A stretch of 64,000 nt of DNA from assembly GCF_001429395.1 (NCBI RefSeq), contig NZ_LMJT01000023.1, forward strand, positions 141,631 through 205,630. The letters are read 5' to 3'. Below the pieces are notes generated by a model. It had not been told where the DNA came from and did no database searches. It worked only from the letters and a program-made list of their open reading frames with translations. The position numbers and the translations under genes are program-made. Numbering within the stretch: the first letter of the stretch is position 1; the number at the start of each line of letters is the position of its first letter. Below are positions 59,856-64,000 of this stretch, piece by piece. This DNA is from Allobosea sp. Root381 (lineage in GTDB: Bacteria; Pseudomonadota; Alphaproteobacteria; Rhizobiales; Beijerinckiaceae).

Positions 59856-59896
59856 TTAGCGCTCCTCAACCCCACACGGGAAAGCGCTTGACCGGC

Positions 59897-60481
59897 ATGG
59901 TGCCAAATCTGCGGATCCTCATCGTCGACGCGAACCAGGTTCGGGCGGCGATCATCGAGGAAGGCCTGCGGGAGGCCGGCTACCAGCAGCTGATCCGCGT
60001 CTCCGCGACGACGGGCCTGGTTGCCGCCATCGAGGCCCATGACCCTGACGTCGTGGTGATCGACCTCGAGGATCCCAGTCGCGACGCGCTGGCCGACATG
60101 TTCCTCGTCAGCAGGCATGTCCGCCGGCCGATCACCATGTTCGTCGACCAGTCGGACTCGGCCTCGATCGAGGCCGCGGTCGAGGCGGGTGTCTCCGCCT
60201 ACATCGTCGACGGGCTGAAGAAGGAGAGGATGAAGGCGATCCTGCAGACCTGCATCAGCCGCTTCAATGCCTTCCGGAAGCTGCGCGAGGAACTCGACGA
60301 GGCCCGCTCGCAGCTTGAGGACCGCAAGACGATCGACCGCGCCAAGGGCATTGTCATGCGGCTGAAAGGTCTCTCCGAAGACGAGGCCTACGCATTGATG
60401 CGCCGTACGGCGATGAACGAGAAGCGCAAGCTCGTCGACATCGCCCGCTCTCTCATCACCGCCGCGGAGATGCTCGAATGA
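59897..60481 (+). CDS. nasT: NasT: ANTAR-domain antitermination response regulator
   Basis: RNA-binding regulator of nitrate assimilation, 194 residues from ATG 59897 (TTG 59888 is an alternative). A receiver-like domain (RILIVDANQVRAAII, VVVIDLEDPSRDALADM, about 5-120) leads through a coiled coil into the C-terminal ANTAR domain (about 135-190: QLEDRKTIDRAKGIVMRLKGLSEDEAYALMRR in segments, with conserved Ala and hydrophobic positions). ANTAR proteins bind paired hexaloop hairpins and prevent termination. Its stop overlaps nasS by four bases (ATGA). Confidence 0.93.
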   Translation: MVPNLRILIVDANQVRAAIIEEGLREAGYQQLIRVSATTGLVAAIEAHDPDVVVIDLEDPSRDALADMFLVSRHVRRPITMFVDQSDSASIEAAVEAGVSAYIVDGLKKERMKAILQTCISRFNAFRKLREELDEARSQLEDRKTIDRAKGIVMRLKGLSEDEAYALMRRTAMNEKRKLVDIARSLITAAEMLE

Positions 60482-61551
60482 CGACGCTGCACCTGCGGGT
60501 CGGCTTCATGCCGCTGGTCGATTGCGCGCTGGTCGTGCTGGCAAAGGACGAGGGCTTCGCCGAAGCCGAAGGGCTCGATCTGGAGCTGGTTCGCGAGGTT
60601 TCATGGTCGAACCTGCGCGACAAGCTGAACGTGCGCCTGTTCGACGCCGCCCATATGCTCGGCCCGGCCGCCATCGCTGCGACGCTGGGCATAGGCGGCG
60701 TCAAAGCCCCCGTGGCGGCGCCACTGGCGCTCAACCGGGATGGCGCCGCGATCACCGTCTCGCTGCGGCGCTTCGAGGAGCTGTCGCGACTGGCCGAGGG
60801 AGACCTGGCCGATACCGCGGTCTCGTGCCGCGCGCTTGCCGCCATGGTCGCGCGCCGCAGGGCTGCCGGCCTGCCGCCGCTGACCTTCGCCGCGGTGTTC
60901 GGCTTCTCGATGCATATCTACATGCTTGCCGAATGGCTGGAGAAAGGGGGGCTCAAGCTCGGAGAGGACATCCGGTTCGAGGTGGTACCGCCTCCCCAGA
61001 CTGTCGAGGCGCTCGCCAGCGGGCGAATCGACGGCTTCTGCGCGGGGGCGCCTTGGAATTCGGCCGCCGTCGCGGCTGGCGTCGGCGCAATGGTCCATGC
61101 CAGCGTCGACCTGCGCCGCAACTGCCATGACAAGGTCCTGGCCTGGCGGGCCGACGATGTGCAGAAGCGCCCGGCCGCCGTCTCCAAGCTTGGCGCCGCG
61201 ATCCTGAAGGCCAGCGCCTGGGCCTGCCGTCCGGAGAATTTTTCGCGCATGGCGCATCACCTCTCCGCGCCGGACCGCCTGGCGCTCCCGGCAGGGCTCA
61301 TCGAGCGCATCCTGCATGGTGATCTGATCCAGGGCGCCGATCGGCCGCCTCGATCGATCGAGCGGTTTATCCGGTTCGACCGGGAGGCCCTGCGCCCCGA
61401 CCCTGATGATGCCGACTGGGTGCTGGCCGGCATGGAACGCGCCGGCCAGATCGTCACGACCGCGCTTATGCGCGACATCGCCCGTGGCGTTTTCCTGCCC
61501 GCCTCTTTCGAGGGCATTCTCGCCGCAAGCGAAGCGGAGATTAAAAACTAG
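60478..61551 (+). CDS. nasS: NasS: nitrate/nitrite sensor, NrtA-like without export signal
   Basis: Cytoplasmic homologue of the nitrate-binding protein NrtA, 357 residues. It starts TTLHLRVGFMPLVDCALVVLA with no signal peptide and keeps the two-lobe pattern (WSNLRDKLNVRLFDAAHMLGP, EVVPPPQTVEALASGRIDGFCAGAPWNSAA in segments). In Paracoccus, Azotobacter and Bradyrhizobium NasS holds NasT inactive until nitrate or nitrite is bound. The start overlaps nasT by four bases, so the pair is made together. Confidence 0.92.
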   Translation: MTTLHLRVGFMPLVDCALVVLAKDEGFAEAEGLDLELVREVSWSNLRDKLNVRLFDAAHMLGPAAIAATLGIGGVKAPVAAPLALNRDGAAITVSLRRFEELSRLAEGDLADTAVSCRALAAMVARRRAAGLPPLTFAAVFGFSMHIYMLAEWLEKGGLKLGEDIRFEVVPPPQTVEALASGRIDGFCAGAPWNSAAVAAGVGAMVHASVDLRRNCHDKVLAWRADDVQKRPAAVSKLGAAILKASAWACRPENFSRMAHHLSAPDRLALPAGLIERILHGDLIQGADRPPRSIERFIRFDREALRPDPDDADWVLAGMERAGQIVTTALMRDIARGVFLPASFEGILAASEAEIKN

Positions 61552-61660: not shown

Positions 61661-61676
61661 TGGCACAGTCCTTGTA
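61661..61676 (+). promoter_or_regulatory. Sigma-54-like promoter before the nrtA leader
   Basis: TGGCACA-GTCC-TTGTA. It fits TGGCACG-N4-TTGCA except for one base in each half. Start of transcription is predicted near 61687, two bases before the first hexaloop hairpin (61689). Sigma-54 control with NtrC would tie nrtA to nitrogen limitation. Confidence 0.6.
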
Positions 61677-61688
61677 AGGCATTCCGTG

Positions 61689-61785
61689 ACGCGGCCAACG
61701 CTGCCCGCGTGCTCCCCGATCCGGACGATACAGCAACGCCGCTGTCGAATGCGCCTGCCAAGGCGTCTTTCGCGTGGCGTTTTTT
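61689..61785 (+). promoter_or_regulatory. Two-hexaloop ANTAR target and terminator in the nrtA leader
   Basis: Hairpin 1: arms 61689-61696 and 61703-61710 (one C-C mismatch), loop AACGCT. Hairpin 2: arms ACAGC/GCTGT at 61730-61734 and 61741-61745, loop AACGCC. Both six-base loops have A1 and G4, the known ANTAR recognition pattern. They are 19 bases apart. A weaker stem (GCCA..GCG at 61757-61765 with CGC..TGGC at 61771-61778) then leads to six Ts at 61780-61785, terminator-like. GGCGTT after it can also pair with the loop sequence AACGCC. Confidence 0.75.
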
Positions 61786-61838
61786 GCGTTCGGGTCTGGG
61801 TCCAGGCGAGTGGCTTTTCAGTAACCGAGAGGCGATCG

Positions 61839-63167
61839 ATGACGCATACCTCCAAGACCGGGATCAAGGTGGCCGCATCCGCGCCGGCCGCTGCCAGCCG
61901 CCGACACCTCCTGCAATTGTCCGGTGCGGCTGCGCTGCTTGCCGCGGCGAAGGCTGCCTTGCCCTCCGGCGCCTTCGCGCAAGGCGCCGGCCCCGAGGTC
62001 AAGGGCACGCGCCTCGGCTACATCGCACTGACGGACGCCTCGCCGCTGATCATCGCCAAGGAGAAGGGCTTCTACGCCAAGCATGGCCTGCCCGACATGG
62101 ATATTGCCAAGCAGGCGAGCTGGGGCGCGACGCGCGACAACATGGCGCTCGGCTTCAAGGCCAACGGCATCGACGGCGGCCACATCCTGCGACCCAAGAC
62201 GCATCTCTACACCACCGGCAAGGTGATGCAGAACAGCCAGCCTCTGCCGATGTATACGCTGCTCAACCTCAACGAGGACGGGCAGGCGATCTCGGTCTCG
62301 AACGAGTACAAGGACCTCAACGTCCAGAAGGACGCCTCGCCGCTGAAGCAGGCCTTCGAACGCAAGAAGGCCGCCGGCAAGGAACTGACCGCCGCCATGA
62401 CCTTCCCGGGCGGCACCCACGATCTCTGGATCCGCTATTGGCTTGCCGCCGGCGGAATCGATCCCGACACCGATATCAAGGTCATCGTCGTGCCGCCGCC
62501 GCAGATGGTGGCGAACATGAAGGTCGGCAACATGGACTGCTTCTGTGTCGGCGAGCCCTGGAACGAGCAGCTCGTCAACCAGAACATCGGCTACACCGCG
62601 CTGACGACGGGCGAACTCTGGTCACGCCATCCCGAGAAGATCCTCGGCATGCGGGCCGACTTCGTCGATGCCAATCCCAAGGCGACGCAGGCCATCCTGA
62701 TGGCCGTGATGGAAGCTCAGGCATGGGCCGACAAGCGGGAGAACCGCCAGGAGCTTGCCGAGATCGTCGGCAGGCGGCAGTGGTTCAACGTGCCTGTGGG
62801 CGACATCAACAAGCGCCTGCTCGGCGACATCAACTATGGCAACGGCCGCGAGGCGAAGGGCACCGATCTCCAGATGAAGTTCTGGGGCGAGGGCGGTTCA
62901 TCCTCCTATCCCTGGAAGTCGCTCGATACCTGGTTCGTTACCGAGAACATCCGCTGGGGCAAGTTCGAGCCGACGATCGACATCAAGGCGCTGGTCGACA
63001 AGACCAACCGCGCCGACCTCTGGCGGGAGGCCGCCAAGACGCTCGGCGTCACAAACGCGCCGACGGCCGACTCCCGCGGCGTCGAGACCTTCTTCGACGG
63101 CGTGAAGTTCGACCCGGCCGCGCCGCTGGACTACCTCAAGGCCCTCAAGATCAAGCGGGTCGCCTGA
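61839..63167 (+). CDS. nrtA: NrtA-type nitrate/nitrite-binding protein, Tat-exported
   Basis: Periplasmic substrate-binding protein of a nitrate ABC transporter, 442 residues. Start ATG 61839 has GAGAGG seven bases upstream. A Tat signal is clear: SRRHLLQLSGAAALL with the twin Arg, then hydrophobic run to GAFAQ. The mature part begins KGTRLGYIALTDASPLIIAKEK and has GGTHDLWIRYWLAAGGIDPD, MKVGNMDCFCVGEPWNEQL, matching NrtA. It is 287 bases after nasS, behind the leader at 61689-61785. An FAD oxidoreductase follows directly; no permease gene is between. Confidence 0.94.
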   Translation: MTHTSKTGIKVAASAPAAASRRHLLQLSGAAALLAAAKAALPSGAFAQGAGPEVKGTRLGYIALTDASPLIIAKEKGFYAKHGLPDMDIAKQASWGATRDNMALGFKANGIDGGHILRPKTHLYTTGKVMQNSQPLPMYTLLNLNEDGQAISVSNEYKDLNVQKDASPLKQAFERKKAAGKELTAAMTFPGGTHDLWIRYWLAAGGIDPDTDIKVIVVPPPQMVANMKVGNMDCFCVGEPWNEQLVNQNIGYTALTTGELWSRHPEKILGMRADFVDANPKATQAILMAVMEAQAWADKRENRQELAEIVGRRQWFNVPVGDINKRLLGDINYGNGREAKGTDLQMKFWGEGGSSSYPWKSLDTWFVTENIRWGKFEPTIDIKALVDKTNRADLWREAAKTLGVTNAPTADSRGVETFFDGVKFDPAAPLDYLKALKIKRVA

Positions 63168-63170
63168 GCC

Positions 63171-64000
63171 ATGGCCGAGCCGCTGATCATTGTCGGAAAG
63201 GGAATGGCGGCGACGCGGCTGGTCGACGAGCTCAGCCAGCGCGCCCTCGGGCGTTACTCCATCGCGGTGATTGGCGCCGAGCCAAGGCTCGCCTATAACC
63301 GCGTGCTGCTCTCGCCGCTGCTCGCCGGCGAAATCGCCGTGCCCGATATCGAGCTGAAGCCCGCCGCGTGGTGGCAGGCACGCGGCGTCTCGACGCTCTA
63401 TGGCCGCGCCGTCTCCGCTATCGACCGCGCGGCGAAGACGATCACGTTGGAGGACGGGCTGAGCCTGCCCTACGCCAAGCTCATCCTTGCGACCGGCTCG
63501 AGCCCTCTAAAGCCGCCTTTCCCCGGCATTGATCTCCCCGGCGTCGCCACCTTTCGCGATACGGCCGATGTCGACCTGCTGCGCGCCCATGCCGAGCGCG
63601 GTTCGAGGATCGTGGTGATCGGCGGCGGCCTGCTCGGGCTTGAGGCGGCCTATGGCCTCGCAAAGGCCGGCGGCAAGGTCACCGTGCTGCATCTCGTCGA
63701 CCGGCTGATGGAGCGCCAGGTCGACGCCGAAGGCGCGGCGCTGCTCGCTGCGGAGATGGGCAGGCGCAACATCACGATCCGGCTCAACGCCGCGACCACG
63801 GGCTTCGTCGGCAACGGCAAGGTCGAGGGCGTCGAGCTCGCGGATCGTTCCGTGGTGCCGGCCGATCTCGTCGTCATTGCCATGGGCGTGCGCCCGAATG
63901 CCGGGCTCGCCAAGGCGGCCGGCGTCGCGGTCAACCGCGGTGTCCTGGTCGATGACGGCATGGCGAGCGACGATCCCTCGATCTTCGCCATCGGCGAATG
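63171..64000 (+). CDS. FAD-dependent NAD(P)H oxidoreductase (NirB/NasB-like), N-terminal part
   Basis: Starts three bases after nrtA and runs off the right edge after 276 codons. FAD site IIVGKGMAATRLVDEL; ATGSSPLKPPFPG; a second dinucleotide motif VVIGGGLLGLEAAYGLAKAG; VIAMGVRPNAGLAKAAG; FAIGE at the edge. It matches the pyridine-nucleotide:disulfide oxidoreductase domain seen at the front of NirB and in the stand-alone reductases of nitrate assimilation clusters. It could be NADH-nitrite reductase large subunit or a separate electron-supply protein for NasC; only downstream sequence can tell. Confidence 0.9.
   Translation, partial: MAEPLIIVGKGMAATRLVDELSQRALGRYSIAVIGAEPRLAYNRVLLSPLLAGEIAVPDIELKPAAWWQARGVSTLYGRAVSAIDRAAKTITLEDGLSLPYAKLILATGSSPLKPPFPGIDLPGVATFRDTADVDLLRAHAERGSRIVVIGGGLLGLEAAYGLAKAGGKVTVLHLVDRLMERQVDAEGAALLAAEMGRRNITIRLNAATTGFVGNGKVEGVELADRSVVPADLVVIAMGVRPNAGLAKAAGVAVNRGVLVDDGMASDDPSIFAIGE

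Follow-up and report, generated by a model that had tools for sequence, protein, structure and literature searches.

The window (the whole stretch of DNA that was analysed, 64 kb in length) raises, in the intergenic region preceding nrtA, the question of how transcription into a set of nitrate genes is halted or allowed to proceed. We consider it very probable that this region encodes a nitrate-responsive NasT antitermination leader of the nrtA operon, belonging to a split type in which the two recognition hairpins stand apart. Behind this reading are sequence features, their conservation and mutually exclusive helices, all observed directly (Table 1), and every element that a prior sequence-only reading had claimed for the leader (i.e. 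the sigma-54-like site, two A1/G4 hexaloop hairpins and a terminator with its T run) was found.

Table 1. Features of the nasT-nasS-nrtA region, in positions of the window
Feature	Position	Strand	Details
nasT	59888..60481	+	receiver-like domain and C-terminal ANTAR RNA-binding domain
nasS	60478..61551	+	NrtA-like nitrate/nitrite sensor; 4-nt overlap with nasT
nrtA leader	between nasS (60478-61551) and nrtA ATG 61839	+	
Sigma-54-like promoter	61661..61676	+	TGGCACA-GTCC-TTGTA; -12 element GT
Predicted transcription start	61687	+	inferred from -12 position 61675
P1 hairpin (slot A)	61689..61710	+	hexaloop AACGCT 61697-61702
Linker, 19 nt (slot B)	61711..61729	+	weak spacer-hairpin candidate
Spacer-hairpin candidate in linker	CCG(61716-61718)-ATC-CGG(61722-61724)	+	
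P2 antiterminator hairpin (slot C)	61730..61745	+	hexaloop AACGCC 61735-61740
Intrinsic terminator	61735..61785	+	exclusive with P2; 3' arm GCGTGGCGTT ends 61781
T run of terminator	61780-61785	+	
nrtA	61839..63167	+	periplasmic nitrate-binding protein; first regulated gene
NAD(P)H-dependent flavoprotein gene, start	63171..64000	+	404 aa in genome

The product of nasT was matched by PF03861 (ANTAR, E 1e-19) and PF00072 (E 3.1e-8), and the gene is listed with a TTG start that is followed, a few codons further on, by an in-frame ATG. It is the sole ANTAR match found in the genome, in which the sigma-54 gene likewise gave one match. NasS (NMT1_2, E 2.8e-59) shares its family with NrtA, and its gene follows nasT, an order that the literature searched describes for the nasTS pair of Paracoccus. 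Past the window end lie a molybdopterin nitrate-reductase-like gene (this oxidoreductase carries a BFD-like domain), a gene for an ABC ATPase and one with a nitrite/sulfite-reductase domain (NIR_SIR); the downstream domain search covered 6 of the 18 listed reading frames, and the other two of these six comprise one without a family and one FAD oxidoreductase on the opposite strand. Judged by the encoded domains, nrtA and the genes downstream of it are a nitrate-assimilation operon.

Sigma-54 promoters are characterized by GG at -24 and GC at -12, ten bases apart, and their transcription start follows a spacing rule relative to the -12 element. The window promoter fits this consensus in its GG at -24 and in its spacing, with GT instead of GC at -12. 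The strict pattern TGGCAC-N5-TTG[CT][AT] matched solely at 61661 when both strands of the window were scanned, and the looser TGGCA-N6-TTG yielded two further matches, both on the minus strand. The P1 stem consists of an A-U pair and five further pairs, with a C61695/C61704 mismatch that separates its closing pair (C61696-G61703) from the rest of the stem; the P2 loop is closed by C61734-G61741, and both loops of the leader are thus C:G-closed, their recognition positions lying 38 nt apart (A1 to A1). Ahead of the T run, where a weak stem had been described, we found instead a strong helix that uses the P2 loop and 3' arm (segment 61730-61786: -26.7 kcal/mol, z -3.64 against 200 shuffles). The pairing between loop 2 and GGCGTT, previously put forward as a possible switch helix, is real; what had been overlooked is that the P2 loop and 3' arm together constitute the 5' arm of the terminator, which is the standard switch of such leaders.

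A search for nrtA in 150 related genomes gave a match in 109, and upstream DNA was taken for the 57 matches with at least 62% identity. The exact P1 core CGCGGCC-N6-GCCCGCG was present in 46 of these 57 regions, all from the same genus as the window (hereafter the Bosea set), and absent from the other 11, three of which belong to the same genus (L047, L052 and L051, the last being only 220 nt long). As the exact core was the selection rule, the constancy of the P1 stem in these 46 leaders is no evidence, all other features having been left unconstrained; the C/C mismatch (61695, 61704) under the closing C:G pair of P1, seen in every core-bearing leader, is part of that same rule. Both loops retained A1 and G4 in 46 of 46 leaders, an invariance which points to recognition by a protein. 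Loop 1 occurred as AACGCT (26), AATGCT (9), AAGGCT (6), AAAGCT (3), AATGTT (1) and AGAGCT (1), and loop 2 as AACGCC (33) or AACGTC (13), the C-to-T change of the latter preserving a U-G pair with the terminator; loop 2 is in this way under two constraints, one from the protein and one from the terminator. RNAalifold predicts an A1-U6 pair within the P1 hexaloop, U6 being constant in all 46. The promoter site (TGGCA...TTG) was likewise found in every leader, 12 (1 leader), 13 (37) or 14 nt (8) from the P1 core, and the sequence in between varies despite the fixed distance, a constancy of spacing that is predicted by a transcription start at the foot of P1. Taken together, the sole ANTAR gene being nasT, the A1/G4 invariance and the fixed promoter distance bear out the NasT/ANTAR antitermination reading that had been proposed from the sequence. 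At -12 the set carries TTGTA (35), TTGAT (6) or TTGTT (5), i.e. GT or GA, and GC is common at this position in relatives outside the set. The P1-P2 distance is 36-40 nt and the linkers measure about 18-22 nt, with P2 following TGGCA at 72-77 nt.

Within the Bosea set the terminator helix was paired in 88.2% of cells, as compared to at most 61.7% when it was slid, and two-sided changes in it did not exceed those of shuffles (2 vs 2.2). Covariation in the stems had been suggested as a check: no pair of the P1 or P2 stem varies within Bosea bar the outer pair of P1 (an A-U in the window, unpaired in 35 of the 46 leaders), which makes the stems uninformative within the genus. The co-change that does exist is found between families, where each altered loop 2 (AAAGCC, AAGGCT and AATGCC, among others) is accompanied by a matching 3' arm of the terminator.

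To what extent this architecture extends beyond the genus was investigated across Hyphomicrobiales, where NasT was detected (E 1e-30 or better) in 134 of 297 genomes. The 132 regions surveyed comprised 121 stretches behind nasT (some shortened by contig ends) and the 11 nrtA regions without the core, with L116-L118 excluded as duplicates. A rule asking for two hairpins plus the switch was satisfied by 78 of 132 regions on the forward strand vs 1 of 132 on the reverse, leaving 54 without a leader by this rule; since the pairing between loop 2 and the terminator is part of the rule, the reverse-strand control matters. Two earlier detectors had scored 22 of 63 on the forward strand against 0 of 63 on the reverse, and 28 of 63 against 4 of 63. 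With the final one, the mismatch next to the closing pair causes P1 hairpins of the Bosea type to be missed. Upstream of the first recognised loop (18-85 nt), a sigma-54-like site was present in 67 of the 78 leaders and in none of 78 control stretches taken 400 nt further up (two controls were shortened, one of these being empty). The first recognised loop followed TGGCA at bimodally distributed distances (33-41 nt in 30 leaders, 52-70 in 36, and 85 in one), the distance from TGGCA to P2 ranged outside the Bosea set from 58 to 104 (median 79), and the nearest P1-P2 distance was 16-28 in 62 of 78 leaders and 31-53 in the other 16 (loops starting with A or G were counted). In some genera (L055, L057, L069, L126 and L127, taken from upstream of nrtA or downstream of nasT) the P2 loop begins with G (GACGCC) and retains G4 and the switch; the loop of L055 was seen by eye, as this locus failed the final detection rule. 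Such loops suggest NasT lineages in which the requirement at position 1 may be relaxed. Three tandem A1-G4 hexaloop hairpins precede the terminator in L052, L079, L081, L091, L114 and L183. The check that had been suggested with an Rfam ANTAR model yielded nothing: a scan of the window leader against Rfam (E up to 5) matched no family, the three weak matches of that scan lying elsewhere, and five whole NasT-leader loci (L001, L053, L102, L081 and L098) matched none in Rfam 15 at gathering score, for which reason NasT-leader RNAs may go unannotated in genomes.

The spacing of these leaders brings us to a broader proposal, which we put forward tentatively and judge to be near, and rather below, an even call: many NasT leaders of Hyphomicrobiales would be built on a register of three hairpins behind the sigma-54 site, whose loops come about 33-41, 53-70 and 71-90 nt downstream of TGGCA. 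The antiterminator would take the last of these slots, and its A1/G4 partner would be found in the middle slot, in the first, or in both. If only the first slot holds the partner, the middle hairpin, devoid of a recognition loop, would fold the extra linker away as a structured spacer that the ANTAR dimer bridges, as in Rhizobium and probably in Bosea. With a recognised partner defined as having a stem of five pairs or more, the stretch preceding a middle-slot-only partner folded below the shuffled mean in 36 of 37 leaders (18 of 19 after thinning, Fisher p 6e-11), and a C-[AG]..G..-G hexaloop occurred in 4 of these 37 first-slot stretches. For leaders with a first-slot-only partner and a sigma-54 site, the linker folded in 12 of 12 (thinned: 7 of 7, p 1.6e-6); without the promoter condition, 13 of 16 long-distance leaders folded below the shuffled mean and 7 reached p 0.05, the linkers of L080, L082 and L189 folding no better than their own shuffles. 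Of these 12 leaders, seven have an A1/G4 loop on their middle hairpin, with a stem of just 3-4 bp, and are therefore really three-target leaders; in the other five the middle hairpin carries none.

A second set of 80 named loci, 26 of them with sequence already seen, yielded leaders in 31 of the remaining 54 (29 with a promoter site) and none on the reverse strand of the 80; the 34 of 80 obtained with this set includes misses of the Bosea-type P1. Here the first slot folded in 7 of 8 (thinned: 6 of 7, p 7.5e-5) and the middle slot in 21 of 21 (thinned: 7 of 7, p 1.7e-6), with no A1/G4 loop in 20 of the 21 middle hairpins and with one in 0 of the 8 first-slot stretches. All these slot-folding p values are to be read as guides, because the shuffles kept base composition only and the sequences were thinned to pairwise scores below 0.72. 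The split leaders of this set stem mostly from Rhizobium, Agrobacterium and Neorhizobium (TGGCA to P2 82-84 nt), and those of Rhizobium display a clear spacer hairpin.

As regards Bosea itself, none of the 46 leaders contains a C-[AG]..G..-G hexaloop in its linker, and therefore only the first and the last hairpins would serve as targets. The helix of the middle hairpin was paired in 77% of cells, and one of its four pairs was kept in all 46 leaders with compensation (C-G 36, U-A 6, U-G 4); the covariation score of the whole structure exceeded that of 500 of 500 shuffles, and the structure slid by -1 scored higher (0.107 vs 0.042). A strong spacer hairpin was rejected for this genus and kept as a weak one, because its folding test fails after thinning (Fisher p 0.004 with 28 distinct linkers, but about 0.10 with 8 representatives). 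From its sequence, the Bosea leader would be of the split type (first and third positions recognised) with a degenerate spacer at best. The linker (61711-61729) can also pair with a GTTCGG-like sequence located right after 61785, which is possible in read-through RNA only. Such a helix between the linker and the region after the T run appeared both in the whole-leader fold and with RNAalifold, and for the window sequence it is strong (shuffle p 0.00 of 300); as a general element it is unproven, given that a leader's own tail was better than others in 17 of 28 cases (median shuffle p 0.29) and that RNAalifold gave no pair with both sides changed.

Three other explanations of the locus have to be weighed against a two-hairpin NasT target. 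P2 and the terminator alone could constitute the NasT switch, with P1 mainly shielding the 5' end of the mRNA or pausing the polymerase and its loop being incidental. In support of this, the spacing between P1 and P2 lies beyond the tolerance documented for EutV in the published text searched (PMC3369931, PMC8934654), NasR can bind one hairpin on its own, though less tightly, according to the searched part of its source (PMC7496416), and in middle-slot-only leaders the first-slot stretch folds yet lacks a hexaloop in 33 of 37 cases and in 8 of 8 of the second set, so that another job for such a hairpin is possible. The P1 loop of the 46 Bosea leaders, however, varies at positions 2, 3 and 5 while keeping A1, G4 and the last T constant, which would be needless for a mere cap, and we regard this explanation as unlikely.

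A plain attenuator controlled by default through cross-pairing of P1 and P2, or by some other switch made of RNA only, would dispense with NasT altogether. For the isolated segment of P1, linker and P2, the cross-helix is indeed the minimum-energy fold (-21.3 kcal/mol vs -18.8 for the two-hairpin form in the window; in 21 of the 46 Bosea leaders the latter form falls short of the best fold by no more than 1 kcal), and the loop and 3' arm of P1 could pair with the terminator 3' arm at 9 of 10 positions. Against this, the cross-helix was rejected as the main state for being little better than shuffles (z only -1.19), the changes seen in the P1 loop (AATGCT, AAGGCT and AAAGCT) are unmatched in the constant terminator arm GGCGTT, and the A1/G4 invariance and the adjoining nasT argue against a NasT-free switch, making it very improbable. 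Least probable, to the point of being negligible, are chance hairpins that happen to accompany an ordinary intergenic terminator. The high GC content of the region favours folding, and single C-A..G..-G hairpins with at least five pairs number 37 and 43 on the two strands of the window, but a scan of both strands (64 kb) for two such hairpins, of which the second had to be able to pair with a T-rich 3' arm, was satisfied solely at 61697/61735. Chance is refuted by conservation in 46 genomes, and the order-wide survey with its reverse control (1 of 132) speaks against it as well. The P2 core pattern has its only exact match in the genome at the window site; as a means of finding further NasT sites genome-wide it was uninformative when up to two mismatches were allowed (283 matches vs 262 for the reversed pattern).

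We thus favour the two-hairpin NasT leader, for which the following course of events may be envisaged. RNA polymerase with sigma-54, probably together with NtrC, would start near 61687, so that P1 would be the first RNA to emerge; the involvement of sigma-54 and NtrC, suggested by general knowledge and by the promoter match, would make nitrogen limitation a second requirement. When nitrate is lacking, NasS would hold NasT, the terminator would fold from the P2 loop and 3' arm, and transcription would stop at 61780-61785. In the presence of nitrate, freed NasT would bind the A1/G4 loops of P1 and P2 and P2 would stay folded; with P2 held, the terminator could not form and the operon would be transcribed. 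Binding of NasT and the response to nitrate at this leader we infer from work on NasT, NasR and EutV, according to which nitrate releases NasT from NasS (PMC3795266) and a dimer gripping P1 and P2 lets P2 obstruct the terminator (PMC3369931, PMC3369936, PMC8934654).

Mechanism and regulator are already known for NasR, EutV and NasT, and the nrtA leader is another of that kind; the unusually wide split of its recognition hairpins, present also in some relatives, looks new. What follows draws on searched text passages of the cited papers. NasT binds the nasA leader once NasS-NasT has been activated by nitrate (PMC3795266), a mutation in leader hairpin HI severely lowers expression in Paracoccus (PMC5424462), and sigma-54 promoters have been predicted for the nitrate ABC-transport genes of Pseudomonadota (PMC12316311). 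The nas, nos and nap leaders of Paracoccus denitrificans and Bradyrhizobium diazoefficiens share with the Bosea leader the NasT-NasS pair, the kind of operon and the hairpins before a terminator (PMC5424462, PMC3795266, PMC6759348). In the literature searched we met no Bosea leader, no description of a three-slot register or spacer hairpin, and, for the NasT-NasS leaders of Paracoccus and Bradyrhizobium, no hexaloop pair split by a spacer position.

A close likeness outside this pair is offered by nasF of Klebsiella oxytoca, where NasR likewise recognises two hairpins whose A1/G4 loops are closed by C:G pairs, P2 and terminator are exclusive and nitrate is the inducer (PMC7496416, PMC3369936); SELEX with NasR recovered A1 and G4 in loops that a C:G pair closes (PMC7496416). 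Unlike the Bosea system, in which NasS senses, NasR is a single protein with its own nitrate domain. The eut leaders of Enterococcus faecalis (EutV) have the same P1/P2 dual-hexaloop antiterminator (PMC3369931, PMC8934654), and their linkers measure 5-12 nt, longer ones failing: a 14-nt linker drastically reduced induction (PMC3369931) and the addition of 20 nt abolished antitermination (PMC8934654). The 19 nt between the stems of the Bosea window fall outside this working range and inside the 2-25 nt accepted for P1-P2 linkers in an actinobacterial survey (PMC8164766), the distance from A1 to A1 being 24 in eutP (A29, A53) vs 38 in the window. The three-slot comparison bears on how an ANTAR dimer that needs a set distance between hairpins copes with natural linkers of variable length. 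If a folded spacer replaces the short linker, searches for targets with close hairpins would overlook nitrate genes of rhizobia and related bacteria, and the spacing rule established for EutV would be one of distance in space.
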